Positions 21 through 35,518 of a stretch of 35,518 bases of DNA are shown in pieces. A program made the translations under genes and the position numbers. Position 1 is the first letter of the stretch. Each line of letters starts with the position of its first letter. The notes beneath the pieces were generated by a model that was not told the origin of the DNA, did no database searches, and saw nothing but the letters and a program-made list of their open reading frames with translations. This DNA comes from a virus: the IMG/VR virus record IMGVR_UViG_3300042991_000671, positions 1 to 35,518 of that record; one strand, written 5' to 3'.

Positions 21-884
21 ATGTTTACATTGATAAAGTGTGATAATGAAAGTCCATTAAATGTCTTGATTGATAAAGAAGAAAATACTAGTCATAATTA
101 TATTAGCTATAATCACGAGGTAACTAATGAAGTCTTTACAGATATTGAAAATTTAGAACAAAAAGACTGTGATATAAACCAAGAAGCTATTGAAATTTTT
201 AGACACTCCGCTTCTATAGAAAAATTGGAATTTTTAGCAAAAAAGCATCCTCGCATTGAAGAATATAGGATTGCTTTATATTCTAGTATTGAAGCAAGTA
301 TAAAGATAGATCGTAGAATTAAAGATTTAAAGAAAATAAAAGCTGAATTTAATAAACTTTTTACTACAAAATCAAAAAGAACTGCCAATTATACTACTCC
401 TTATCCTTCTATAAAAGCTAATGGATTTGCTATATATTCAGAGGTCATTGGAGAAATACAAATTTTAAGGAAACGATATAATGACCTTTGTTTTGGTAAG
501 GAATATTATAATTTATATATAAAGAAAAATGAGATTAAAGAAGCTATTGAACCTAAAGCTACTATTATGAGTCAACAAGCCACTTTTAATCAAGAGGCAT
601 TTATATTTAGTCATAAAAATGAGCCTTGTATATCCGTTTTGGAACAAGAATATCGGGATCAATTGGCAATTAGATTTATTTTTTCACATAGTGCCAAAAT
701 TGCCGAAATTATAGCTAACATTAAGAGTATTAAACAAATAGGCTTAAAATGGAAACAACAAGATATATTACGGGATATTAAAACAGGCCTTATTGATTAT
801 AATAGCTTGAATTTATTAGGTAGCGAGGCTTTTAATATCTATATTGAAGTATTAAAAATTTTGGATCATTATATTAAATTTTGA
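21..884 (+). CDS. hypothetical protein, first gene of replication module
   Basis: A 287-residue protein that I do not recognise. It is rich in Lys, Ile, Glu and Asn with predicted helical stretches (residues about 60-125 are strongly charged and helical), and has no signal peptide, membrane segment or clear catalytic motif. The ATG has an AAGGA site 8 nt upstream. The reading frame stays open back to the left edge of the window, so the true start could lie outside. The helicase gene follows after 12 nt, so the two are probably co-transcribed, which suggests a role in replication or its control; that is inference from position only. Confidence 0.75.
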   Translation: MFTLIKCDNESPLNVLIDKEENTSHNYISYNHEVTNEVFTDIENLEQKDCDINQEAIEIFRHSASIEKLEFLAKKHPRIEEYRIALYSSIEASIKIDRRIKDLKKIKAEFNKLFTTKSKRTANYTTPYPSIKANGFAIYSEVIGEIQILRKRYNDLCFGKEYYNLYIKKNEIKEAIEPKATIMSQQATFNQEAFIFSHKNEPCISVLEQEYRDQLAIRFIFSHSAKIAEIIANIKSIKQIGLKWKQQDILRDIKTGLIDYNSLNLLGSEAFNIYIEVLKILDHYIKF

Positions 885-896
885 AAGGCTTAATTT

Positions 897-2531
897 ATGA
901 AACCAATTTTAGTTGCAAAGGATTTTGAGTATCAGCTTTATGGCACACAAAACCATTTAATGGCAGGAGAATATATTATTTATAGTAATTCTAAAGTAGA
1001 TAATGATGATAAATTAAAATTCAAGGATATTGTGCATCAGCATGGAAAAGGTTTTATACACGCAAAAAGAAACAATATTTATTATGTTTTATTGCCAAAT
1101 TATGAGTATTTATATCGTTATTTCAATGGTTATGAATATCGCTTACAAGAAGAAATTGATAATAGTTATAATCCGGAGGTTATAAAAAGATTATGTAACC
1201 AGTATTCATTAAAAGAATGGCAAAAAAACACTTTGATGGATATATATTCCAATTTATCTAAAAACTTAAAATATAAAAAGGGTCTTAATGTTCCTGTTGG
1301 TGCTGGAAAAACCTTAATCGCTTTAATATTGTCCGAATATGCCAGGTTAGAAAATAAAACTTGTTTAATGCTGACAGAAAAACATTTAATCACAACTGTA
1401 GAATATGAAGCTAAACAATGGAAATTATCAAGTCCAACAACTTTAATAAATTATGCTAATTTGGGAGTAAAAAAATCAAACATACAAGAAAAATATGATA
1501 TAGTGATTGTTGATGAATGTCTAAAATTTAAGTCAGGCAATACTAAAGATTTTATGAAATTAAGGAAATTATGTGATATGGCAGATATTGTTATATGTTG
1601 CACGGGTACTATAACATCCGGCCGTGATATAGCAGATTTGTCTTGGCTAAACCTTTTGGGGGATATAGTGCCAAATATACAAGATACCTGGATGTTTCTA
1701 TATGGGTTAAATGTTGATATTGTTAAATTTTCCGTTCGTGTTAATGCTACAGATCATATGGGTAATAGGTATTTAAAAGATTGTTTAGTAACCAAGGTTA
1801 CATGCGAGACTTGGAATTTTGATACTATTTTTCAATTGATTTCTCCTTATTTAATCAGTCCTATTATACAAGATATTAAACTCCCAAATTTACAAGAAGA
1901 AACTATTTATTTTAATAAACCTTCTTATTATGGAACTGTTAAGGCCGGATTATATGGATGTCCTCCAGGTTCTAATTTTTATCAGTTAGTAGAAGCAACA
2001 GCAGGTTTTGTAACAAATGCAAAAGGCGAAACTATTGCATTAGAAAAAAATCAAACTATGAAAATGACATGGATATTAAATTGGTTACAGGATAATCCAA
2101 ATAAGCAATTATTAGTATTTTCATTTTATGTATATGAACAGGAGCTATTTAGTGAGTTTTTAAAGAAAAATAATATTACATATTGCTTTAATACTGGAAA
2201 AAAGAAAACAATAGATAAATTTATATCAAAAAAAGCTAGAGTTTTAATATGCTCCTCTCAAATGACCGAGGGTATGAATTTACAATATAATGTTGATACT
2301 TGTATATTTTTAAGTTTTTCTTGGCATCCTGTAAAATTGGTTCAAGGTATAGGCCGGGTATGTAGACAAGGTCAACCAAGTCCGTATGTTAAAGTATATT
2401 ATTTGTTATGCCAAGATACTTTAGACACCAAAGTTTTAAATAGATTAGGTGAACATATAAAAATATTAAAGACTTTAAATACAGATATACAAGACAATAA
2501 GGCCGCCAAAGGGTTTTTAAACGCGATTTAA
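897..2531 (+). CDS. SNF2-like superfamily 2 DNA helicase/translocase
   Basis: A 544-residue ATP-driven DNA translocase or helicase, probably acting in phage replication. Motif I (Walker A) is VPVGAGKTL near residue 132. Motif II is VDEC near 206, in place of DEAH/DEAD. Motif III is TGT near 240. The second RecA-like domain has LVFSFYVYEQE near 405, SSQMTEGMNLQ near 458 and motif VI QGIGRVCRQGQ near 483, the Q-x-x-GR-x-x-R pattern of SNF2 and related SF2 enzymes. The first 110 residues precede the helicase core and may be an accessory domain. AAAGG precedes the ATG. The gene lies between an unknown gene and a DNA polymerase, consistent with a replisome job. Whether it unwinds DNA or only translocates is not shown by the sequence. 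Confidence 0.92.
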   Translation: MKPILVAKDFEYQLYGTQNHLMAGEYIIYSNSKVDNDDKLKFKDIVHQHGKGFIHAKRNNIYYVLLPNYEYLYRYFNGYEYRLQEEIDNSYNPEVIKRLCNQYSLKEWQKNTLMDIYSNLSKNLKYKKGLNVPVGAGKTLIALILSEYARLENKTCLMLTEKHLITTVEYEAKQWKLSSPTTLINYANLGVKKSNIQEKYDIVIVDECLKFKSGNTKDFMKLRKLCDMADIVICCTGTITSGRDIADLSWLNLLGDIVPNIQDTWMFLYGLNVDIVKFSVRVNATDHMGNRYLKDCLVTKVTCETWNFDTIFQLISPYLISPIIQDIKLPNLQEETIYFNKPSYYGTVKAGLYGCPPGSNFYQLVEATAGFVTNAKGETIALEKNQTMKMTWILNWLQDNPNKQLLVFSFYVYEQELFSEFLKKNNITYCFNTGKKKTIDKFISKKARVLICSSQMTEGMNLQYNVDTCIFLSFSWHPVKLVQGIGRVCRQGQPSPYVKVYYLLCQDTLDTKVLNRLGEHIKILKTLNTDIQDNKAAKGFLNAI

Positions 2532-2587: not shown

Positions 2588-4834
2588 TTGCGGGTTTATA
2601 TGAATTTACAAAATAGAAAATGTGTTGTTATGTTAGATATTGAGAGCGTGGGTTTAAAAGGTGATATAGTATCTATTCAAGTTTCTTATGCTTATATGAA
2701 ACTTGAATACATTTTTATTCCAAGTTTAATTAAAGACAATATAAATAAGGAATATGAACAATTCAAACAAGATTTAAATAATCCGGATTATTGTTTTATT
2801 GGTTTTAATATTGCCTTTGACCTTTGGAAACTTTATACATTATTTAAGCCAAATTCACCATTTAAAGCCACTTTTTTAGACTTATCTTTTCATTTATTAG
2901 ATAGTGATTTATTAAATAGTATTTTATCATCTGGAAAAACCTTATTATATTTTAAAGCAATTCCAAAAGAAATTAGCCCTTATTTTGATACTTGTTTGCG
3001 TGAAATATTAAAAGATATTTTCCCATCTAAAGTGGAATTAAAAAAGAAAGAGACAACATACTCCAATATAAATAAAGGTAATTTAAAAAAATCAGAGAAA
3101 ACCAAAGATTTTACAGATTTAAGTTATAGATCAAAACTAAATAGAAAATTAAAAACCATATGTTCACTATTATTTAGAAAAAATAAAATTTATAATGGAA
3201 CTGATGCTTTGTATTTAAAAGAATTAAACGAAAATAAAACAACTTTTTTTGTAGCTAATGAAGAGGTAGAAAAATATAATCTGATTAAAAATAAACTTAT
3301 CTCGGCTTTGATAGATAAAAATAGCCATACTTATAAATATTCTTTAGATGATATAAGATTATTATGGGAATTAAAATTATGGATTGAAATTGAAACAGGG
3401 TATATTTTAAAAATGAATATAAATGATTGTTGTAGCAATATTATTGCTTATACTAAATATATAGGATTTAAAATTGATATGGAGAAAGCCAATTCTTTAT
3501 TAACTAAACTTAACAATAGAATGCTAGAGATTAAAAAGACTATACCATTAGTAAATATTAACAGCTTTCAACAAAGATTAAATTTATTAAAAACACATAC
3601 AAAAAATAACTCCTTATATTCGAATGCTATTGTAAGCATAAATAAAAATAGTATTCAAGAATATATAGATGCTGATATATTAAATGAACAAGGCCTAATA
3701 TATGCAAAAATGTTTATTGAACGAGGACAATTAGCACAAAGAATTAAGCAACTTGATAGCTTAATCACAAAGTACGACGGAAAGCGTATTTATCCAGATT
3801 TAAGAATTGACGGAGCAGTAACAAATAGAATGTCTGGACAAGGAGGCTTAAATTTTCAAGGTATACCAAGAGATGGGGAAATAAGAGAGTTAATTCAAAC
3901 AAGTTTTGGTGGGGATTTTGCGAGTTTAGAAATAACCTTGGCTAATGGTGCAATTGGAGTATTCAAAGAACAATTAGAAAATTTTGAAAAAGGTACAGCT
4001 CTTGATTTGCACACATTCACAGCCATGAATGTTTTTACTGAAGAATGGGAGGAAATATTTGGAACTGAACAAAACATGCAAATCATTATAAAATCCGTTA
4101 AGGTAATAAAAGAAGATAAGAAAAATAAATATTATTATAAATTTAAAGAATTACGAAATAAAGGCAAACAAGCTAATTTTACAATGTTATATGGCGGTAC
4201 AACAAGATTGGGAATAAAAGAAGCTGAAAAATTCTATAGTACATACCCAGAGATTAAAGAATTTCACAAAAAAGTTAATAAATCTTTTTTAACTTTATGT
4301 CCTGAAAATGAAGTTCCTAATTGGTCAATAGAAGCTATAAATTATATGAAGGAAGGAATTCAAAATATTTTTGGGTATAAAAGATATATAAAATTTGAAA
4401 AAACAATTTGTAAATCTATTTTTTCAAAAATGGATTTATTCATAAATAATCTTGTGAATATTCTACCTACTGATTTACTATCAAAAGAATATACAAGAAA
4501 CAAAAATAAAACGCAAAAAATAGATAGTTTAAGCAAAAGCATATTATGTGGAAGTCTTGTTAATTTACAAAATATATTAAGCAGACAAATAAAAAATTTT
4601 CCTATTCAATCATCGGGATCAGAGGTTTGTAAATATTTAATGGTATATTTATTTTCAAAATGTAATATACCCATGCTAAATATACATGATGAAATCATTG
4701 TCCCAACTGAATATTTGGGACAATACGATAATGCAAAAAAATATCTAAAACTATTTTTATTACATCATAAAAAACATACTCCATTTTTAGATATGGAATT
4801 GGATTTAATGAAGAATTGGTCTGATAAAAAATAA
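2588..4834 (+). CDS. family A DNA polymerase with 3'-5' exonuclease domain
   Basis: Replicative DNA polymerase of 748 residues. The N-terminal DnaQ-like proofreading domain is intact: Exo I DIES (D17, E19), Exo II N-I-A-F-D (N74 to D78) and an Exo III-like YSLDD near residue 255. The polymerase domain has motif A GGDFASLE near 441-448, the O-helix motif B with R523, K527, F531 and Y535 in RNKGKQANFTMLYGG, and motif C HDE at 700-702. No 5'-3' exonuclease domain is present, as in T7-type phage enzymes. The TTG at 2588 lies 6 nt after GGAGG (2577-2581); an in-frame ATG at 2600 is 18 nt away, but a CCGC/GCGG mini-hairpin between could shorten that distance. Start choice is therefore uncertain by 4 residues. 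Confidence 0.95.
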   Translation: MRVYMNLQNRKCVVMLDIESVGLKGDIVSIQVSYAYMKLEYIFIPSLIKDNINKEYEQFKQDLNNPDYCFIGFNIAFDLWKLYTLFKPNSPFKATFLDLSFHLLDSDLLNSILSSGKTLLYFKAIPKEISPYFDTCLREILKDIFPSKVELKKKETTYSNINKGNLKKSEKTKDFTDLSYRSKLNRKLKTICSLLFRKNKIYNGTDALYLKELNENKTTFFVANEEVEKYNLIKNKLISALIDKNSHTYKYSLDDIRLLWELKLWIEIETGYILKMNINDCCSNIIAYTKYIGFKIDMEKANSLLTKLNNRMLEIKKTIPLVNINSFQQRLNLLKTHTKNNSLYSNAIVSINKNSIQEYIDADILNEQGLIYAKMFIERGQLAQRIKQLDSLITKYDGKRIYPDLRIDGAVTNRMSGQGGLNFQGIPRDGEIRELIQTSFGGDFASLEITLANGAIGVFKEQLENFEKGTALDLHTFTAMNVFTEEWEEIFGTEQNMQIIIKSVKVIKEDKKNKYYYKFKELRNKGKQANFTMLYGGTTRLGIKEAEKFYSTYPEIKEFHKKVNKSFLTLCPENEVPNWSIEAINYMKEGIQNIFGYKRYIKFEKTICKSIFSKMDLFINNLVNILPTDLLSKEYTRNKNKTQKIDSLSKSILCGSLVNLQNILSRQIKNFPIQSSGSEVCKYLMVYLFSKCNIPMLNIHDEIIVPTEYLGQYDNAKKYLKLFLLHHKKHTPFLDMELDLMKNWSDKK

Positions 4835-4850: not shown

Positions 4851-5357
4851 ATGAAATTAGTTGATACTCAAATTTTAGAATTAGGCATTGTACAGAATGT
4901 TATTGATCATAAAGTTGAGGATTGTCTATATTCTTATGGTATTGAACCTTGTGGTTATACAGCTAGATTAAATGATAAATACCTATTTGATGGAATAGAA
5001 GGAGAGGTGCAGATTGATAAGAATGGAACATCATATATTCTAATTTATCCTGGGATACCTTATGTATTAGCAACAATAGAGACTTTTACATTTCCTAATA
5101 ATATAACTGGAATGATATTCTGTAAGAGTAGTTTGATAAGGCAAGGAATGGCTGGTTTCTTTGGTGCAATAGAACCTGGTTATAATGGCAACATTAGTTC
5201 TTTATTTTATAATTTTAGTACTAAAGCTATCCTTTTGAAACCTGGTCAAGGTTTTATCCAAATTCAGTTTGAAAAGTTGTATAAAAAACCAAAGTCAATT
5301 TATACTGGACGCTACCAAAATTCTAAAGGAATAACAGGATATAAAGAAGTGGAATAA
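4851..5357 (+). CDS. dCTP deaminase/dUTPase-fold protein (Dcd-like)
   Basis: A 168-residue member of the trimeric dUTPase/dCTP deaminase superfamily, normally supplying dUMP for dTTP synthesis or removing dUTP. Landmarks follow the family order: PGIPYVLATIETFTFP (67-82), CKSSLIRQGM (91-100; S93 and R97 match Ser111 and Arg115 of E. coli Dcd), IEPGYNGNISS (107-117), LKPGQGFIQIQF (129-140) and a C-terminal RYQ-x-x-x-G. The position ten residues after the acidic residue of EPG, which is catalytic Glu138 in E. coli Dcd, is Leu118 here, so standard deamination is doubtful; dUTP hydrolysis, dUTP binding or a regulatory role remain possible. The gene follows the polymerase by 16 nt with an AGGAG site. 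Confidence 0.85.
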   Translation: MKLVDTQILELGIVQNVIDHKVEDCLYSYGIEPCGYTARLNDKYLFDGIEGEVQIDKNGTSYILIYPGIPYVLATIETFTFPNNITGMIFCKSSLIRQGMAGFFGAIEPGYNGNISSLFYNFSTKAILLKPGQGFIQIQFEKLYKKPKSIYTGRYQNSKGITGYKEVE

Positions 5358-5380: not shown

Positions 5381-5565
5381 CAAGCTCTATTAGCCCCACT
5401 TGATGCTTGTAAGCCCCCTCCCAAGCTCTATTAGCTCCACTTGATGCTGTAGCCCCCTCCCAAGCTCTATTAGCTCCACTTGATGCTGTAAACCCCCTCC
5501 CAAGCTCTATTAGCTCCACTTGATGCTGTAAACCCCCTCCCAAGTTCTATTAGCTCTATTAGCTT
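5381..5565 (+). repeat. 40-bp tandem repeat, about 4.6 copies
   Basis: Direct repeats begin 23 bp after the Dcd-like stop codon at 5381 (41 bp), 5422 (39 bp), 5461 (40 bp) and 5501 (40 bp), with a partial copy at 5541-5565. Each unit starts CAAGCTCTATTAGCTCC and ends in a C-rich CCCCCTCC. The copies at 5461 and 5501 are identical. Because unit lengths vary between 39 and 41, reading frames are not kept and the array is most likely noncoding. The C-rich blocks stand out from the AT-rich surroundings. Function unknown; array position downstream of an early gene and upstream of a box array suggests a replication or control role. Confidence 0.9.
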
Positions 5566-5577
5566 CATATGATTATT

Positions 5578-5900
5578 AAAATATTTGTCAATTCTAAACT
5601 TCTTTTAAATTTCAAAACTTTAGGTTCTATGAGCGGCAAATTGGATGCCAAAAAAAATTTTCAGGTAAGAACGGGGAAAAAGAAGGTTACTGAAAATTTT
5701 TTTTGGCATCCAATTTGCGAGGCAACAACGAAACTATACTTGTGTCAGTGGAGAAGTTTAGTGTTGACAAATATTTGAATAATCATTGACAATATTTGTC
5801 AACACTATGACAATATTCGTCGCCTTGTAACCCTCATAGCAGTAGTCTTACAAAGGAGACTGACAATATTTGGCACTTGTATCATCAATATTTGTCAGTA
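5578..5900. promoter_or_regulatory. array of TGACAATATTTGTCA-like palindromic boxes
   Basis: Six related boxes occur in about 320 bp: AAATATTTGTCAA (5578-5590), TTGACAAATATTTG (5764-5777), the best one TTGACAATATTTGTCAA (5786-5802; 7-bp arms around TAT), TGACAATATTCGTC (5808-5821), TGACAATATTTGGC (5861-5874) and TCAATATTTGTCAG (5884-5897). The full-length copy is a dyad, the form expected of a binding site for a dimeric repressor or an initiator protein. The array ends about 40 bp before a promoter candidate for the gene at 6002. Operators or origin iterons are both possible; the sequence alone does not decide. Confidence 0.65.
5636..5718. repeat. perfect 29-bp inverted repeat, 25-nt loop
   Basis: The arms at 5636-5664 and 5690-5718 are exact reverse complements (29 of 29). 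Each contains GCAAATTGGATGCC followed by an A8/T4 block. The loop, 5665-5689, is purine-rich. The structure lies in the gene-free control region after the tandem repeats and between boxes of the TGACAATATTTGTCA array. As RNA it would form a very stable hairpin on either strand, and the T8 runs sit inside the stem, so it is not a canonical terminator. It could be a cruciform, a protein-binding site or the remains of a small mobile element. Confidence 0.85.
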
Positions 5901-6536: not shown

Positions 6537-6567
6537 AAACCGCACTTTATAAAGTGCGGTTTTTTTA
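6537..6567 (+). terminator. intrinsic terminator of the + strand module
   Basis: A perfect 13-bp dyad AAACCGCACTTTA / TAAAGTGCGGTTT at 6537-6562 is followed by a run of T residues through 6566. It begins 4 bp after the stop codon of the gene at 6002. This is a textbook rho-independent terminator for + strand transcription; the flanking A residues make it usable from the other strand too. Confidence 0.92.
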
Positions 6568-6738: not shown

Positions 6739-6747
6739 CTTGTCGCC

Positions 6748-6815
6748 GGCATAGTAGAGATAAATCGAGCCATTTTCCCCGAGCCCCTTTTGGCTCGATT
6801 TATCTCTACTATGCC
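6748..6815. terminator. perfect 25-bp hairpin between convergent modules
   Basis: Arms 6748-6772 and 6791-6815 are exact reverse complements, including the core GATAAATCGAGCCA, around an 18-nt C-rich loop. There is no long T run after either arm, so if it stops transcription it would do so as a very strong stem or by stabilising transcript ends. It could also bind protein as a DNA cruciform. Confidence 0.75.
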
Positions 6816-6819
6816 GTCT

Positions 6820-6960
6820 CCGCTTATGCGGCCTGTGGCCGCTGGGTATGTCGGCCTCCTACGGAGGCCTCCGCTTATGCGGCCTGTGGCCGCTGGGTAT
6901 GTCGGCCTCCTACGGAGGCCTCCGCTTATGCGGCCTGTGGCCGCTGGGTATGTCGGCCTC
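6820..6960. repeat. GC-rich 51-bp tandem repeat, 2.8 copies
   Basis: Two complete 51-bp units (6820-6870, 6871-6921) and a 39-bp partial unit (6922-6960) end exactly at the stop codon of the RNR gene. The full units look identical. Each contains three small dyads: CCGC-TTAT-GCGG, GCGGCC-TGT-GGCCGC and GGCCTCC-TAC-GGAGGCC. The block is far more GC-rich than anything else in the window. Because 51 is a multiple of three, several frames stay open on both strands, but no ribosome binding site supports translation. Best read as a structured 3' end of the late transcript or a recently acquired repeat. Confidence 0.9.
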
Positions 6961-8749: not shown

Positions 8750-8777
8750 TACCACCAAATTAAAACCTTTGGTGGTA
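8750..8777 (-). promoter_or_regulatory. CCACCAAA hairpin upstream of the RNR gene
   Basis: A perfect 10-bp dyad TACCACCAAA / TTTGGTGGTA with an 8-nt loop lies 17 bp upstream of the RNR start codon, just before its AAGGA site. On the - strand it is followed by CTTTTAAGG, a weak U tract. The arm repeats the CCACCAAAG element found four times in the gene-free right end of the window. It may be an attenuator, an RNA processing site or an operator; a terminator here would separate RNR from upstream genes. Confidence 0.6.
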
Positions 8778-8789
8778 TATAATATATTA

Positions 8790-13436: not shown

Positions 13437-14011
13437 ACTGATCCTTTATATTCTGAATAATACCCGGCGCGACAGTTTTTTTCCCAAATATTAGCACCTT
13501 TTGAAGCATTGCATTCAAAACAAGAACAAACTAAATTAGCTATATTAGATGTCCCACCATGCGCTAATGGTATAAAATGATCTATAACCATTCTTATTTT
13601 TTTGCCTATTTCGTCTCTTTGATTTTGGTATCTACCACAATAACAACACTTAAATTTTGCATCTCTTGCTACCCTAATCCGCCATTCTTTTGGAATAAAT
13701 GTTCTTTGTTCCTTATTAGGGAAATATTGTTTTTTTCTTTCTTGCCGTTTTATATCTTTTTCTTTTTCTTTATTATATTCAAAACATTCTATAAAATCTT
13801 GGTTCAATAAGATTGGACATATTAGATTTTCTTTTCCTATTCGTGGCATATTTTCACAATATACCCCCTTTTTAGGTAACAAGGAGATCGAGCCATATCC
13901 TTCTAGTACTAGATTTAATCGTGTAGGAGGTATATTATAAGGTTTTTTTAAAAAATATTTAGAATATAGTAAACGCCAACATTTTATTTGGTATTCACAC
14001 GAAATTGTCAT
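13427..14011 (-). CDS. HNH endonuclease
   Basis: A 194-residue protein with a C-terminal HNH domain: paired C-x2-C zinc ligands at 122/125 and 164/167, the central D144-H145 followed by PLAHGG with H151, and N156/N159 with N168 in CFECNASKG. This ordering (RVARDAKFKCCYCG ... VIDHFIPLAHGGTSNIANL) is that of bacterial and phage HNH nucleases that cut double-stranded DNA. The first 110 residues are a basic region of unknown role. AGGGG precedes the ATG. It overlaps the kinase gene by 17 bp and the next gene by 10 bp, so it is fully embedded in the operon. It could be a homing-type nuclease or part of DNA processing; it is distant from terminase, unlike packaging-associated HNH genes. Confidence 0.9.
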   Translation of the reverse strand: MTISCEYQIKCWRLLYSKYFLKKPYNIPPTRLNLVLEGYGSISLLPKKGVYCENMPRIGKENLICPILLNQDFIECFEYNKEKEKDIKRQERKKQYFPNKEQRTFIPKEWRIRVARDAKFKCCYCGRYQNQRDEIGKKIRMVIDHFIPLAHGGTSNIANLVCSCFECNASKGANIWEKNCRAGYYSEYKGSVWN

Positions 14012-15179
14012 TTTTTAACCCCTGAATACAGGTAATAAATAAATTACATAATTTATATTTATGACATGTATCTTTTGAATATTCACAAGTATCGCATAAA
14101 TTAAAATTTATTTCTTTATAACTTACTTCAGTATCTACTAATATATTGGGAACAATTGGCTCTGTTTTATTCTCATTTTCCCAGTCTGTTAAAATTGCCG
14201 CCAAATCGTTTATAATTATATCTAAACTATTGTATCGTATTTTTTCATCAGTACAAACCATTTTGTAGAATATATTCCTTATTTTTACTGGTAGATAATC
14301 TGCTAATTCTTTATTATATCTTATTATTGCATTTAGGCTATAAACCTCATTAGGTGCTATAGTCTTTGGTAAATAACGCCATTGTAGGAACTCCCACATA
14401 ATATAACCTAACGAATAGATGTCATCATTAAAATTAGAATGCACGGCATCTTTATTTGCAAGTTGTTTAGGAGAGGCATATATAGGTGTTCCAAGACCTT
14501 CTCCTACCCTAGTTAATTCAAGATTTTCATTAAGGTTCTTTGATAATGTCCAATCTAATATGGCAATTATAGGTTCGGCTTCATATTTACCTGTAACCAT
14601 TAGATTAAGGCTTTTAAGGTCTCTATGAATTATATTATTACCATGAACATATTTATTTATAATGACTAATAATTGAATAAATAATCGTAAAGAATATATT
14701 ATATTTTTTTTACTAGCTAAATAAGGAATTATCAAAGAGCCTTCAATAAATTCTTGTTCTAATACTAAATAAGGCTCTTTCGTCAACTTAAAAACTTTTG
14801 GAACTAATATATTCTTTTCTTTACTAATCATATTACTAATCTCTTTTTGAGTAATAATTGAATTATGAAAACGATCTTTAAAGTAGCATCCGCCAACTGT
14901 AACATTAGGCCGTGTATATATTGGATTTATTAGCTTAATACATATTTTATTATTAGTCATATTATCTTTTATAGCAAGTATAATGCCTTCTCCGCCAGCA
15001 GAAACAAACTCTATTAAGGAATAAGCCTTATTATAATAGTTAAGAAACTGCTTAAGTAGTTCAGTTGGTATCTTAACTATCTTTGTATTATAAGAAAATA
15101 TATTATCTAATAACAAGTTAATCGGGTCTTGTTCCATAATAGAATTTTCTTGGCCTTTTTTTGTGAAACCAAGAACCAT
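13995..15179 (-). CDS. Hanks-type Ser/Thr protein kinase
   Basis: A 394-residue protein with a eukaryotic-like kinase domain at about 54-335. The glycine loop is SAGGEG (60-65), the ATP-binding lysine K82 is in ICIKLI, the catalytic loop H185-R-D187-L-K189-S-L-N192 is complete, and the DFG motif is D209-W-T. GTPIYASPKQ (230-239) corresponds to the activation loop end/APE region, and DDIYSLG (252-258) to subdomain IX. All residues needed for catalysis are present, so an active kinase is expected. The tail has a Cys cluster (C362, C365, C372, C378, C384) that could bind metal. A GGAAG site precedes the ATG. It follows a two-helix membrane protein gene by one base. Target unknown: it may modify virion or host proteins. 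Confidence 0.92.
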   Translation of the reverse strand: MVLGFTKKGQENSIMEQDPINLLLDNIFSYNTKIVKIPTELLKQFLNYYNKAYSLIEFVSAGGEGIILAIKDNMTNNKICIKLINPIYTRPNVTVGGCYFKDRFHNSIITQKEISNMISKEKNILVPKVFKLTKEPYLVLEQEFIEGSLIIPYLASKKNIIYSLRLFIQLLVIINKYVHGNNIIHRDLKSLNLMVTGKYEAEPIIAILDWTLSKNLNENLELTRVGEGLGTPIYASPKQLANKDAVHSNFNDDIYSLGYIMWEFLQWRYLPKTIAPNEVYSLNAIIRYNKELADYLPVKIRNIFYKMVCTDEKIRYNSLDIIINDLAAILTDWENENKTEPIVPNILVDTEVSYKEINFNLCDTCEYSKDTCHKYKLCNLFITCIQGLKNDNFV

Positions 15180-24045: not shown

Positions 24046-25329
24046 TTAAATATCTGCATAAGTTGGAACACCACTCGTATGTGGTAAATAAATATTTAAT
24101 AATCTGGATAATCCCGTTTGCGTTGTTCCCGTATTTGCCACTGTATCTGCAAAATTAAAATAATCACTATATAAGAAGTCTGTTTGACCAGGTGTAATAA
24201 GATAATATTTACCATCAAACGTTTGTGGTTGTGCTAATATAATATTATCTATCAATAAACTGCCTGTTGTTCTTGATGCTAAAGTAACCTGTATTCTAAC
24301 ACCTTTTTGGATACTATCTTCTTTAAAAGTACGATACCAGCCCTTATTGTCCCCAGTTCCAAGTATTAAATCAAACCAAGTAGCATCTGTTTTCGTCGTT
24401 AAATCAGCTACTGACACAGTTTGAGAGCCTAATCTTAAGGTTAAATCACCATCGCAACTTGTTTTACGCCTATATCTCAATATTAGAAACACTGGAAGCT
24501 CTAAATTAAATCTACTAGCAGCATCAGTTATATATTGCACTACATTAGCATTATCTGTAAATTCCAGGCTTGTTCCAGTAGAAACTCCATATGGTGCTTT
24601 AAAATAGATACTTGTATTAGTAGCAAATTTGGTGGCGTCTGATAAAGTCCATCCTGTAAATGCTAAAGCAGGAGATGTAGTATAAGTTTCAAAAGACGCA
24701 TTAGTTAATTTCCCACTTTCTGAAGGCATAACTAGAATATTAACCTTGTTATTTAAGGCACTCCCCAACTCTAAAGCATCAGTTGGCGGCGTTCCCGTAT
24801 AATATATATCAAAAGTTTCTGCCCCTGCTACTCCTCCATTATTTTTATCTCTTATTGTCTCTAATTTTATAGTTCCACCGGCCATAATTCCTGTTTCTAT
24901 AATTTGATTATTGTAATCTTTATCTAATCTATAAACCGTGCCAGTTCCTACATTAGAACCTCCTACTGTTACTGTTCCATTAGTCCAAGCCCTGTTTTTG
25001 ATAGTTTCCAATCCTGCTATCATACCATCAAATATGTCTATTATTGCCTGATTATAAGAGGTTGCTTTACTGTTATAACCAATTCTGGCCAATTCTAGGA
25101 TAACAGGAGTTAATATTGAGTTATTTGCCACAATGCTTATTAGACTGCCCCGTATACTATTTAAAGCCGATACCGTGGCCGAAGTATGGTTACCTTTTAA
25201 TAATGTTATTATTGTTTCCTGTAATGTTATAAAATTAGGCGTATTAACTGATGCATAATTATAATTTTCATTGACCAATTTTATAATATTTAATAATTGA
25301 GACCAAAGCTCCGATTTAGATGGAGGCAT
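24046..25329 (-). CDS. structural protein with carbohydrate-binding-like domain
   Basis: A 427-residue protein. The N-terminal part (1-125) is helical; the middle (125-200) is a Gly/Thr-rich beta region; and from about residue 200 to 370 there is a segment N-A-S-F-E ... GWTLS, with conserved-looking spacing to LFLRYRRKT-like and WFDLILGTGDNKGWYRTF segments, then LLIDNIILAQP. That order, an N-x-x-F-E opening, a Trp and a final IDNI, is characteristic of CBM4/9-type jelly-roll carbohydrate-binding modules. A surface-exposed sugar-binding virion or fibre protein is likely. GGAG precedes the ATG. Confidence 0.7.
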   Translation of the reverse strand: MPPSKSELWSQLLNIIKLVNENYNYASVNTPNFITLQETIITLLKGNHTSATVSALNSIRGSLISIVANNSILTPVILELARIGYNSKATSYNQAIIDIFDGMIAGLETIKNRAWTNGTVTVGGSNVGTGTVYRLDKDYNNQIIETGIMAGGTIKLETIRDKNNGGVAGAETFDIYYTGTPPTDALELGSALNNKVNILVMPSESGKLTNASFETYTTSPALAFTGWTLSDATKFATNTSIYFKAPYGVSTGTSLEFTDNANVVQYITDAASRFNLELPVFLILRYRRKTSCDGDLTLRLGSQTVSVADLTTKTDATWFDLILGTGDNKGWYRTFKEDSIQKGVRIQVTLASRTTGSLLIDNIILAQPQTFDGKYYLITPGQTDFLYSDYFNFADTVANTGTTQTGLSRLLNIYLPHTSGVPTYADI

Positions 25330-31246: not shown

Positions 31247-32545
31247 TTAAACTCCATAAATATTTTGTCCATAATTTAAACCAAGAAGGCACAAAGGATG
31301 TGCTAGTGCATTTAAAATATTTATATATTTAGATTTGGGAACTTCTACATCTGGCTTATCTTCTTCGCTATGCTTATTTTCCTCCCATTTTATCCGCTCC
31401 AATGCAGTAATTGTTTCAGTACATTTTTTATAAATCTTTATTTTTGAAGTCTGGTTAATTATTTTTAAATTATTTTGAATTGTCTGAAGCCGTTTTATTT
31501 GTGCCGTCATTTTGCCACATTTTTTCTCTTCTTCATTTATACTAATTGATAATCCCAAATCATTAAAAACCTCTGTAACCGAATAATCCCAATAATTTCC
31601 AACATAACCTATTATATTATTATGCTCCCCGATTTCTTTAATTTTTTTTGCGCAATCAATAAATGGTAATTCTGTTTGATTATATTCTTCAGTTAAATAA
31701 AAAATTTTAGTTTGTGGATCAATATGAAACACAATAGCATGAGTTGGATTTTTATAGCCTCTCTCAATCCCTATTATCGCTGGCCATTCTTGATAATTAT
31801 TAGGTAATATATCAACTAGATTATTAGCATCTACATTAAATATAAAACCTCTTCTTGATATAAATTCACCTTCATATTGTTCTTTAAATATTTTTTCGTC
31901 TATCTCTTTTCTTGCCGTTTCATATTCTTCTTTACTAAAAAAAGGATTATCAATAGTTTTGAACTTAAAACTTGACCAATCTTTTTCCCCTCTTATACCA
32001 TTCTGATATAAGTCATAGAAAAGTCCGCCATCACTATTTGGAGTAGATATTGCAAGAACTTTACCACAGCGACTACCTAACCTCGCACGGAGCATTCTTT
32101 CCCATATTTTTTTTGGCAACTGGGATGCTTCCGATAAAATAAGCATATCTAACTCTTCACCTAATAAGGTTTGCGGCTTTTCCGTTGATTTGGTTTCAAT
32201 AAAACTCCCCCAATTAGAATATATTGACCTCGATCCTTTTTGTGCATTACTAACATCACAACTCTTCAAAATATTAGTACCACCAAAGTTTAATTTACTT
32301 AAAAACTCAATACACCAATTAAATTCCCTTTCAGCAAGCTCGTATTGAGTTCCACAAATCCATATATGTTTATTTGGTTCTAAAAATGTAGCAACAGCCT
32401 CCGCACCTGATAACATTGACTTGCCAAATCTTGCTCCTGCTGCTACAATTCTAAATCTACTTAAATCGTTATGTACTAATAATTGTTTTTCACTTGGCTG
32501 ATAATTCATTTTATTGAATATCTTTATTTTTTGTTTCTGGTTCAC
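31247..32545 (-). CDS. terL: terminase large subunit
   Basis: A 432-residue packaging motor. Walker A is AAGARFGKS (35-43). The Walker B region reads LDMLILSEAS (132-141): the usual acidic pair DE is S-E. The coupling motif STP follows at about 167. The nuclease domain starts with GIERGYKNPTHAIVF, with E for the usual D, then GYVGNYWDYSV. GTG at 32545, with an AGAG site 8 nt upstream, is the chosen start; it overlaps the preceding gene by 35 bp. ATG at 32509 is an alternative without a site. The portal follows after 3 bp. Confidence 0.92.
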   Translation of the reverse strand: MNQKQKIKIFNKMNYQPSEKQLLVHNDLSRFRIVAAGARFGKSMLSGAEAVATFLEPNKHIWICGTQYELAEREFNWCIEFLSKLNFGGTNILKSCDVSNAQKGSRSIYSNWGSFIETKSTEKPQTLLGEELDMLILSEASQLPKKIWERMLRARLGSRCGKVLAISTPNSDGGLFYDLYQNGIRGEKDWSSFKFKTIDNPFFSKEEYETARKEIDEKIFKEQYEGEFISRRGFIFNVDANNLVDILPNNYQEWPAIIGIERGYKNPTHAIVFHIDPQTKIFYLTEEYNQTELPFIDCAKKIKEIGEHNNIIGYVGNYWDYSVTEVFNDLGLSISINEEEKKCGKMTAQIKRLQTIQNNLKIINQTSKIKIYKKCTETITALERIKWEENKHSEEDKPDVEVPKSKYINILNALAHPLCLLGLNYGQNIYGV

Positions 32546-33202: not shown

Positions 33203-33409
33203 TTACTCCTCATAATAAGAGGCTACAAGCCATCTGCATACTTTAGTTAAAATAAAAGTTTCAGTATAAATATTATCACCATTATATTTTGAAGGTTTAT
33301 TATCATAATATAAATTATGTTCTTCTTCCAAACCAACTTCAATATCTTTAATATCTTCTTCGTCCAGGTTAATTTCTAAAATGTTTAATAAATTTCGTAG
33401 TGTATTCAT
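33203..33409 (-). CDS. hypothetical acidic small protein
   Basis: A 68-residue protein with a markedly acidic middle (NLDEEDIKDIEVGLEEEHN) between an N-terminal helix MNTLRNLLNILE and a C-terminal TFILTKVCRWLVASYYEE. AAAGGAA precedes the ATG. It overlaps the first gene of the operon by ATGA. No family was recognised. Confidence 0.6.
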   Translation of the reverse strand: MNTLRNLLNILEINLDEEDIKDIEVGLEEEHNLYYDNKPSKYNGDNIYTETFILTKVCRWLVASYYEE

Positions 33410-33693
33410 ATATTTTTTTCCTTTAAATATGTTAAATTTTCTCTAAAAAAATATAGATTTTCCCCATCTTTTAATATTTTAATTCTTATAATTTCATTAG
33501 AAAATAATTTAAAAACATAATATATATGAGATAAAAAATTTCTTAAATCAATAATACCCGAGATTATTAGGTCTAGTTTATTTTTTGTATAAATAATATT
33601 TATATCTGATTTTTTAAAATCTTGAACTAAAATATTTATTATATTATTCAAATCATTAGTTGATATTTTTTCAAAAATAATATTTATTTCCAT
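33406..33693 (-). CDS. hypothetical small protein, first gene of late operon
   Basis: A 95-residue protein starting MEINIIFEKISTND, with alternating helices and beta-prone Ile-rich segments (INIIYTKNKLDLIISGIIDL). The ribosome binding site is weak (AAAG). It is the most upstream - strand gene, about 65 bp downstream of a promoter candidate. No family was recognised. Confidence 0.6.
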   Translation of the reverse strand: MEINIIFEKISTNDLNNIINILVQDFKKSDINIIYTKNKLDLIISGIIDLRNFLSHIYYVFKLFSNEIIRIKILKDGENLYFFRENLTYLKEKNI

Positions 33694-33756
33694 TTTACTT
33701 TATGAATATTTTTTATTCTTATATCTCCATCATCATTTATTAACATGATCCCCTAT

Positions 33757-33784
33757 ATTATAGTGGTCAATTTTTATGCTTCAA
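33757..33784 (-). promoter_or_regulatory. sigma70-type promoter candidate of the late operon
   Basis: On the - strand TTGAAG (33784-33779), a 16-bp spacer and a perfect TATAAT (33762-33757). Transcription would start about 55-60 bp upstream of the ATG at 33693 and could run through to the RNR gene. The perfect -10 element is the best promoter match found in the right arm; the spacing is 1 bp short of optimal. Confidence 0.55.
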
Positions 33785-34056
33785 AACTCTATAAGCCTTA
33801 TGGCAGTAGGCTTTGATCTGTTTTTAGGAAATATGGCTGAAAAAGATTTAGTAGACTATTTGCATAAGTGTATATATATCAAATATATATAATGCTAAAA
33901 AATATTATATTGGCTTAATGCATCCTCGCAATCCCTTATAAAATTTTTATAAACCTATATTTTAAGCGGATTGTAGGCTATCAGATTTTTCATTTTTTCC
34001 TTGTAACTCAATAAAATAAAGGCTTTATAATATTACAATATGTATTATATACCCAA

Positions 34057-34097
34057 GACGCCTTATTAAGAATAATAACTATTATCATTAAGGCGTC
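34057..34097. repeat. inverted repeat with GACGCCTTA arms
   Basis: Arms GACGCCTTA (34057-34065) and TAAGGCGTC (34089-34097) are perfect 9-bp complements; the inner AT-rich sequence (TTAAGAATAATAACTATTATCATT) pairs further with some mismatches. It lies in the gene-free region upstream of the late promoter. No U tract follows on either side. Possible operator or structured leader. Confidence 0.55.
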
Positions 34098-34193
34098 GTG
34101 GTTATCTACTATACTATAAATTCCTAACAAAATAGCAGAATGACAAAATATACCAATTATCTTATTGATACGCCTTAAAATTGATTTAAACCC

Positions 34194-34373
34194 CTTTGGT
34201 GGCCATAATATCACTTTATTGGCAATCAAAGTTTACATAGACCACACCGTTCCTCCCAAAATAAGATTACATAAGATAAGATAAGATAAGATAAGATTAC
34301 ATAAGATAAGATAAGATAAGATTACATAGGATAAGATAAGATAAGATAAGAATATTCTTAATTGCCACCAAAG
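34194..34373. repeat. (ATAAG)n array bounded by CTTTGGTGGC/GCCACCAAAG
   Basis: Between 34259 and 34350 a pentamer ATAAG is repeated about 15 times, broken by two ATTAC insertions into three blocks (30, 25 and 30 bp) that make a higher-order repeat. The array is enclosed by a 10-bp inverted pair, CTTTGGTGGC at 34194-34203 and GCCACCAAAG at 34364-34373. The repeat is not a multiple of three in context and does not encode a protein. Simple AT-rich repeats like this are common next to replication origins as unwinding regions. Confidence 0.85.
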
Positions 34374-34394
34374 TGTTTTAATTTAACTAATCAG

Positions 34395-35126
34395 GTTTAT
34401 GAGTTTAGAATATTCAATTTCGAAGCCGCGTTTAATCTTAAGCAATACAAGTCAAGGCTACTTTATAAACCTTATAATATAAGGATTATAAATATTCAAT
34501 TTCGAAGCCGCGCTTAATCTTAAGCAATACAAGTTACTAATATTCTATAAGCCTTATAAATCAAGGTTAAAATAGTTGGCTTGTAAGCCTTGATTTATAA
34601 GGGACGGACTTTTTTGTGAATATTTTGAATATTTTAAAAATTAGGATCCTTGTAATATAAGGGTTACAAAGAATATTCAAATATTCAGTCCGTCCGTCCG
34701 TCTCTATAGTATCTTTATAATCTTATATAATATTATAAGATTATAAGATTATAAGACTATAAGATTATAATATTAAAAATGTATAAAGAAAATACTATAG
34801 CATGGACGGACGGACTGAATATTTGAATATTTCTTGTAAGCCTTGTAATATAAGGATCCTAATTTTTAAAATATTCAAAATATTCACAAAAAAGTCCATC
34901 CCTTATAAATCAAGGCTTACAAGTCGCCTATTTTAGTCTTGATTTATAAGGCTTATAGAGTAACCTTGGCTTGTATTGCTTAATATTAAGCACGGCTTCG
35001 AAATTGAATATTTATAATCCCTACAATATATGGCTTATAAAGTAGCCTTGACTTGTATTGCTTAATAGTAAGCACGGCTTCTAAATTGAATATTGTGAAT
35101 ATTCTAAACTCATAAACTCATAAACT
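34395..35126. repeat. imperfect palindrome of about 730 bp with four 43-bp elements
   Basis: Left arm about 34395-34719 and right arm about 34781-35126 are near-complements along their whole length, with scattered mismatches and a roughly 9-bp insertion in the right arm, around an AT-rich centre (34720-34780) made of ATTATAAG-type repeats. Each arm carries two direct copies of a 43-bp element with core GAAGCCG and AAGCAATACAAG: 34409-34451, 34491-34533, and, inverted, 34970-35012, 35052-35094. Next to the centre, repeated CCGTC (GTCCGTCCGTCCGTC at 34689 and its complement near 34804) is also mirrored. The right arm ends in four ATAAACTC copies. No reading frame explains it. Confidence 0.9.
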
Positions 35127-35149
35127 CATAAACTCATAATAATAAAATG

Positions 35150-35258
35150 ATAACCCTTTGGTGGTAATTAGGTTTATTTTGTTAATTTATGATTATAGGC
35201 ATATGTTCTTATTTTCTTATGAGGAGGTGAGGCCTCATTATTGCCACCAAAGGGTTAT
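35150..35258. repeat. 15-bp inverted repeat with CCACCAAAG core
   Basis: ATAACCCTTTGGTGG (35150-35164) and CCACCAAAGGGTTAT (35244-35258) are perfect complements, separated by 79 bp that include TGAGGAGGTGAGGCCTCA, itself a partial palindrome. The arms contain the same CCACCAAAG element as 34194, 34364 and the hairpin at 8750. Confidence 0.8.
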
Positions 35259-35518
35259 ATTGCAAATTTAATGATTAAGAGATACAATGGTATACTTTAT
35301 ATCATAAAATCAATTTGATATGCCTTAAATCGCCCAGGATTGAGTTGGCTATATAATATAAGGAAAATCGGGAATGGTGGTAGCACCACTCCCGATTTAG
35401 AAAGATTCTTGGCTTTTCTAAAAAAAAAATTTTAGACTGACCTTACCGGCATTAGTTTATAAAACTGGATGGCTTGCAGTACAAAGCTTTGAGAAAATGC
35501 ATACATTAGCAAGGAGAG
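35259..35518. other. gene-free right end with a hairpin
   Basis: No gene is seen. A hairpin at 35365-35398 (arms AAATCGGGAATGGTG / CACCACTCCCGATTT with one mismatch and a 4-nt loop) is followed by a normal stretch and then an A9T4 run near 35422. An open frame begins at an ATG near 35497 and runs off the right edge; if the ends of the window join, it continues in frame into the gene at 21. Confidence 0.5.

Follow-up and report, generated by a model that had tools for sequence, protein, structure and literature searches.

A 0.7-kb imperfect palindrome as a candidate replication origin and control region of an uncultured AT-rich phage

An uncultured AT-rich phage, represented by an entire IMG/VR virus record (35,518 bp; hereafter, the window), carries in its longest non-coding stretch a large imperfect palindrome. 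On balance, this dyad is probably an origin from which replication proceeds in both directions and which also serves as the control region between two divergent operons. The GC content along the window is 22%–35% per kilobase, and comparison of the contig ends revealed no end repeat. The phage genes include those for the terminase large subunit (31247–32545), a Mu-type portal, the major head protein, and DNA polymerase, as well as an SNF2-type helicase, dCTP deaminase, and a B12-type ribonucleotide reductase. The main object for comparison was another IMG/VR contig of 51,125 bp (G001), which is syntenic with the window in reverse orientation.

Alignment of positions 34395–35117 with their own reverse complement showed 84.8% identity over 738 alignment columns. 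The imperfect palindrome of ~730 bp described in the first-pass annotation was thereby confirmed, with the symmetry stopping at 35117, not 35126. The strong part of the left arm occupies 34395–34738 (+), with a weaker extension to 34306, and that of the right arm 34765–35117 (−), with a weaker extension to 35220. Without gaps, the arms cover 34404–34699 and 34804–35099; each is 296 nt long, they are 89% complementary, and a spacer of 104 nt separates them. The gapped arms, reaching weakly to 34306–34738 and 34765–35220, have 373 of 423 aligned positions identical, so that the arms are 88%–89% alike and diverge at 12% of aligned positions in the gapped alignment. The four copies of a 43-bp element annotated initially were all recovered at the same positions, namely two direct copies at 34409–34451 (+) and 34491–34533 (+), with a period of 82 bp, and two inverted copies at 34970–35012 (−) and 35052–35094 (−). 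The CCGTC runs noted as mirrored near the centre correspond to GACGGAC runs at 34688–34702 (−), left of the core, and 34805–34815 (+), right of it. Short ATAAG tandem repeats stretch along the left-arm border (34261–34351, +), and a TAAACTCA tandem repeat of 4.4 copies is located at the right border (35105–35139, +). A strong GC-rich hairpin of 15 pairs (35365–35398) was observed past the dyad, on the side of the contig end.

The dyad far exceeds chance for its composition. With each position tested for symmetry within 450 nt on either side, the window peaked at 264 (34750), which is the highest value in the genome. The dyad region itself scored 267.7, and 200 dinucleotide shuffles of it scored 20.9 ± 3.4 (maximum 33.6). 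The peaks in five AT-rich phage sequences were 24.9–39.0; 24 control viral loci, 255 kb in all, did not exceed 24.4, and none of ten Markov genomes scored above 34.8. The single-strand DNA fold of the region had an energy of −270 kcal/mol versus −58.7 ± 3.3 in shuffles. A structured RNA was rejected as an explanation since no Rfam family matched the region and the mismatches between the arms had no consistent strand bias: the ratio of G-T to A-C mismatches was 15:9 for the window dyad, but 9:18 for that of G001.

The structure was found in a single metagenomic contig, and an assembly or amplification artefact in the form of a fold-back chimera should be considered. Such chimeras produce near-identical arms, and the 12% arm divergence, together with a similar dyad at the matching position of the independent contig G001, makes this explanation extremely improbable. 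A long inverted repeat close to a contig end could also be a telomere or resolution site with protelomerase hairpin ends, or the read-through of a hairpin genome end. However, a search for the protelomerase family PF16684 gave no match in the window, G001, or a third genome (G002, described below), which are possibly incomplete records, while a control genome was positive. Read-through of a hairpin would yield identical arms rather than arms differing at 12%. The centre of the dyad is an asymmetric AT-rich spacer of 104 nt lacking a perfect central palindrome, and the dyad symmetry runs on into the flanking sequence on both sides. The telomere-like resolution site suggested initially is therefore very improbable.

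The non-coding hub that holds the dyad (33694–35518) measures at least 1,825 nt and reaches the contig end. The hub is bordered by the first ORF (95 aa) of the leftward late operon (33406–33693, −), and the late genes run leftward from 33693. The rightward early genes, comprising a 287-aa ORF and the SNF2-type helicase, occupy 21–2531 (+) at the opposite contig end. Since the rightward genes lie at the other end, the hub would be between divergent operons in a circularly permuted genome. The first-pass annotation had placed the palindrome between the late operon start and the replication module; the late operon side of this statement stands, while the replication-module side is valid only for a circularly permuted contig. 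In G001, the counterparts of the window genes at 21–2531 are placed downstream of the early-operon block, and about 12 kb of early genes separate the hub from the helicase and polymerase genes. As this block seems to be missing from the window at the junction, the window is probably a fragment; the G001 and G002 contigs may also be fragments.

The cumulative GC skew, one of the checks proposed for locating the replication start, has its minimum in the window at the hub and dyad. The sign change of G001 at 1–3 kb and the minimum of G002 at 24 kb likewise coincide with the strongest dyad of each genome. The skew tracks gene direction in all three genomes and, because all genes of the window and G001 run away from the hub, it is not separable from transcription and is not an independent proof of an origin.

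Several other structures were found away from the hub. Near the operon convergence, positions 5569–5786 form a further, weaker dyad (score 54; 72% over 223 columns), beside a 40-bp tandem repeat of 4.4 copies (5381–5556). A perfect 26-bp palindrome (6537–6562), a 70-bp dyad (6747–6816), and a GC-rich 51-bp tandem repeat of 2.8 copies (6818–6960) occupy the meeting point of the rightward and leftward genes and could represent a two-way terminator. The orientation of the dCTP deaminase gene (4851–5357; L013:15681–16226 in G001) relative to the DNA polymerase gene is opposite in the two genomes, and this flip next to repeats indicates that the operon junction has undergone a local inversion. An ORF at 13995–15179 contains a serine/threonine protein kinase domain (Pfam Pkinase, E 2.4e-16), and a similar ORF is present in G001. 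The latter contig also carries an 80-bp repeat with 96% identity (L012:180–258 and 3417–3496), one copy of which is near the hub; the second copy is within a 331-aa antirepressor-like ORF, apparently in frame, and is reminiscent of rickettsial palindromic elements.

G001 was recovered via a capsid search, while single-sequence searches with the terminase, ribonucleotide reductase, and helicase found no close relatives. The identities between the window and G001 were 87% for the capsid, 73% for ribonucleotide reductase, 71% for terminase, and 56% for the helicase. The first-pass annotation had named the absence of any similar structure in close relatives as grounds for rejecting its reading; such a structure was looked for, and G001 has a comparable dyad of 0.7–1.07 kb between the late-operon start and the contig end, beside the early-operon start. 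Its arms at 1176–1269 and 1823–1916 are 91% alike, a weaker gapped symmetry covers 996–2069, and the score of 85.8 at 1575 makes the hub dyad the strongest one in this genome. It is also located in the longest non-coding stretch, 2,750 nt if the contig ends are joined. Unlike the arms within one genome, the two dyads barely align with each other (alignment score 30.3 against a shuffle maximum of 29.3). In this comparison with one close relative, both dyads have an AT-rich core flanked by CCTTATAAATCAAGG hairpins and RTATTCA repeats, with TTRCCAYCRAA elements facing inward at the borders. A search of related phages for conserved arms had been suggested initially; G001 keeps the layout and the hub position, while the letters have almost fully diverged.

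As the layout has outlasted the turnover of its sequence, the arms seem to be homogenised within each genome by concerted evolution (gene conversion through hairpins or template switching) or to be repeatedly re-formed. Inter-arm concerted evolution and re-formation under selection for symmetry seem to be the parsimonious readings of the likeness of the arms. Alternatively, the dyad could be a functionless by-product, in which small palindromes and repeats in the hub underwent tandem and inverted duplication by template switching. Low-complexity tandem repeats do border the dyad, and other repeats and dyads exist in the window (5569–5786, 6818–6960) and G001 (44342–44394, 180–258/3417–3496). 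However, such a by-product is improbable, given that in all three genomes no dyad is stronger than the one at the hub, that the layout is kept in G001 despite almost complete divergence of the letters, and that long palindromes are generally costly in bacteria (PMC3315005).

The centre of the window dyad is an AT-rich core with 8-bp TATAAGAT repeats (34715–34794), a candidate unwinding element with the lowest predicted duplex stability among all 80-mers of the window. CCTTN(6-8)AAGG hairpin motifs are clustered in both dyads. In the window, these hairpin motifs are CCTTATAATATAAGG at 34470–34484, CCTTATAAATCAAGG, common to the window and G001, at 34552–34566 (+) and inverted at 34588–34602 (−), CCTTGTAATATAAGG at 34648–34662 and 34841–34855, and one more CCTTATAAATCAAGG at 34901–34915 (+), where the 17-mer CCTTATAAATCAAGGCT is identical in G001. 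The RTATTCA sequence occurs in the hub 13 times versus 1.9 expected in the window and 6 times versus 1.6 expected in G001, copies inside a dyad being partly counted twice in both genomes; in G001, the left copies are in the + and the right copies in the − orientation. The TTRCCAYCRAA elements are located outside the arms and point inward in both genomes. In the window, they are represented by TTGCCACCAAAGT at 34362–34374 (+) and TTACCACCAAAGG at 35155–35167 (−), with counterparts at 1074+ and 1979− in G001, and outer copies were found at 34193–34205 (−, TGGCCACCAAAGG) and 35241–35253 (+, TTGCCACCAAAGG).

These features suggest how an origin could operate. A phage or host initiator would bind the repeated candidate sites (RTATTCA, CCTTATAAATCAAGG, TTRCCAYCRAA) in the mirrored arms, and two opposed initiator assemblies would strain the unstable AT-rich centre and cause its melting. 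The phage primase and helicase, found in G001, could be loaded at the melted centre, and the forks would depart both ways, each in the direction of transcription, leftward along the late operon and rightward along the early one. The early operon beside the G001 dyad encodes primase-like, VapE-like helicase, and PD-(D/E)XK proteins, with the SNF2 helicase and DNA polymerase further on. Since primase-like and VapE-like helicase proteins are encoded there, the phage plausibly runs its own initiation. Among the G001 early-operon proteins, no iteron binder could be assigned, and the predicted structure of the primase-like protein had a pLDDT of 36.

The predicted minimum of duplex stability at the window dyad centre and the position of the hub dyad as the strongest in the window, G001, and G002, with controls not exceeding 39, argue for an origin. 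On the contrary, the G001 dyad centre (1506–1585) is only the 8th least stable, the dyad edge being the first, and no DnaA boxes (TTATNCACA) were found in the dyad region of the window, G001, or G002. A DnaA-dependent oriC-type origin was rejected because the region lacks a cluster of such boxes in these three genomes. Overall, the initial proposal of an origin or control site is supported indirectly by the strongest dyad, the longest non-coding stretch, operon divergence, the skew minimum, and the least stable centre, and by the architecture kept at the corresponding place of the syntenic G001.

The same data also fit a purely transcriptional control region, whose arms would be mirrored operators or promoters serving one regulator of both operons, with the origin located elsewhere. 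The dyad is exactly between the divergent operons, its repeats are palindromic, as repressor sites are, and several antirepressor-like genes directly adjoin it in G001. In addition, copies of the flank element with one mismatch occur elsewhere, for example, at 8766–8778 directly upstream of the ribonucleotide reductase gene. However, promoter-like sites are near the shuffled expectation (19 versus 13.9 ± 3.6 in the window and 10 versus 10.9 ± 3.2 in G001), and a dyad of 0.7–1 kb whose least stable DNA lies precisely in the middle exceeds the needs of operators. We consider control of transcription without an origin possible, although unlikely.

The packaging function also suggested initially, taken here as a pac/cos site ahead of the terminase genes, is quite improbable. 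The window dyad precedes terL and the small ORF ahead of it by ~1.6 kb, and the dyad of G002 is upstream of a terL-containing block, but in G001 the dyad is separated from the terminase genes by ~6.6 kb and several antirepressor-type genes. No packaging site is known to require a kilobase-scale dyad.

The genome G002 (32 kb) and its near-copy L047 were found by scanning for the shared motif, and the dyad was not part of the search key. Their proteins have no detectable similarity to those of the window or G001. The strongest dyad of G002 (24768–25041, score 66.0 at 24925) adjoins two motif copies in both the genome and its near-copy, being located between divergent genes at the skew minimum. 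The motif scan yielded 9 singletons in bacterial genomes and 14 viral stretches, mostly chance-like; among its matches, a motif together with a strong dyad was found only in G001 and the G002/L047 pair. Motif matches in Pseudomonas, Paenibacillus, and Methylophilales phages were weak (best E = 0.01). As most other motif matches look like chance, G002 is only suggestive as a third case. A distant search of 50,697 phage records with the dyad DNA returned only low-complexity chance matches of ~37 nt, and the G001 hub part 1000–2500 had no match among plasmids. The genomes G004 and G005 (43% GC) were rejected because no more than one or two genes are shared and a large dyad is lacking. The G002 terminase large subunit (L050:8589–10637) appears from its sequence to contain an intein-like insertion.

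A broader proposal, which we regard as speculative and rather unlikely, is that kilobase-scale dyad origins form a class in which symmetry, not sequence, is kept by inter-arm concerted evolution and may be partly recognised as a cruciform or hairpin. This class would include G002, and CCCTTATARNNYAAGGCTTACAAG would be shared through a common host factor. A dyad of 0.7–1 kb keeping its place and layout in related phages while its letters turn over would be a concrete case of selection on symmetry, and the strongest dyad at the skew minimum would be a simple origin finder for uncultured AT-rich phages.

The first-pass annotation pointed to the instability of palindromes of this length, and bacteria do usually remove or cleave long palindromes. 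In E. coli, SbcCD expression is lethal in a recA strain with a 246-bp interrupted palindrome (PMC3315005). The mismatches and the spacer may soften this instability in the phage dyad. No direct precedent for long palindromes at phage origins was found in the open-licence literature, which is weak evidence of absence, and palindromes near bacterial, plasmid, and viral origins are stated to be short (PMC1762429).

Among known systems, iteron-type origins (lambda ori, R6K, P1) resemble the phage dyad in having repeated short candidate sites beside an AT-rich, easily melted segment and, as in G001, replication genes nearby. Most iteron arrays described so far are short and lie on one side only, whereas here the arrays are mirrored within a dyad of 0.7–1 kb and their sites are only candidates. 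In herpes simplex virus oriS and oriL, opposed initiator sites flank a destabilised AT-rich spacer (PMC12543377), similar to the opposed candidate sites around the AT-rich core, but these origins are much smaller, have few sites, and are not related to the dyad in sequence or proteins. The baculovirus hrs, AT-rich imperfect-palindrome repeats acting as origins and transcription enhancers (PMC6669502), are dispersed palindromes of ~30 bp, while the phage has one large dyad at one hub. Unusually long palindromes are present in the AT-rich, origin-holding control regions of insect and nematode mitochondria (PMC1762429), a different genetic system without sequence relation to the phage dyad. The N15 telRL protelomerase site is likewise an inverted repeat in a phage genome, but the dyad described here is far larger and has neither a protelomerase nor a perfect central palindrome.
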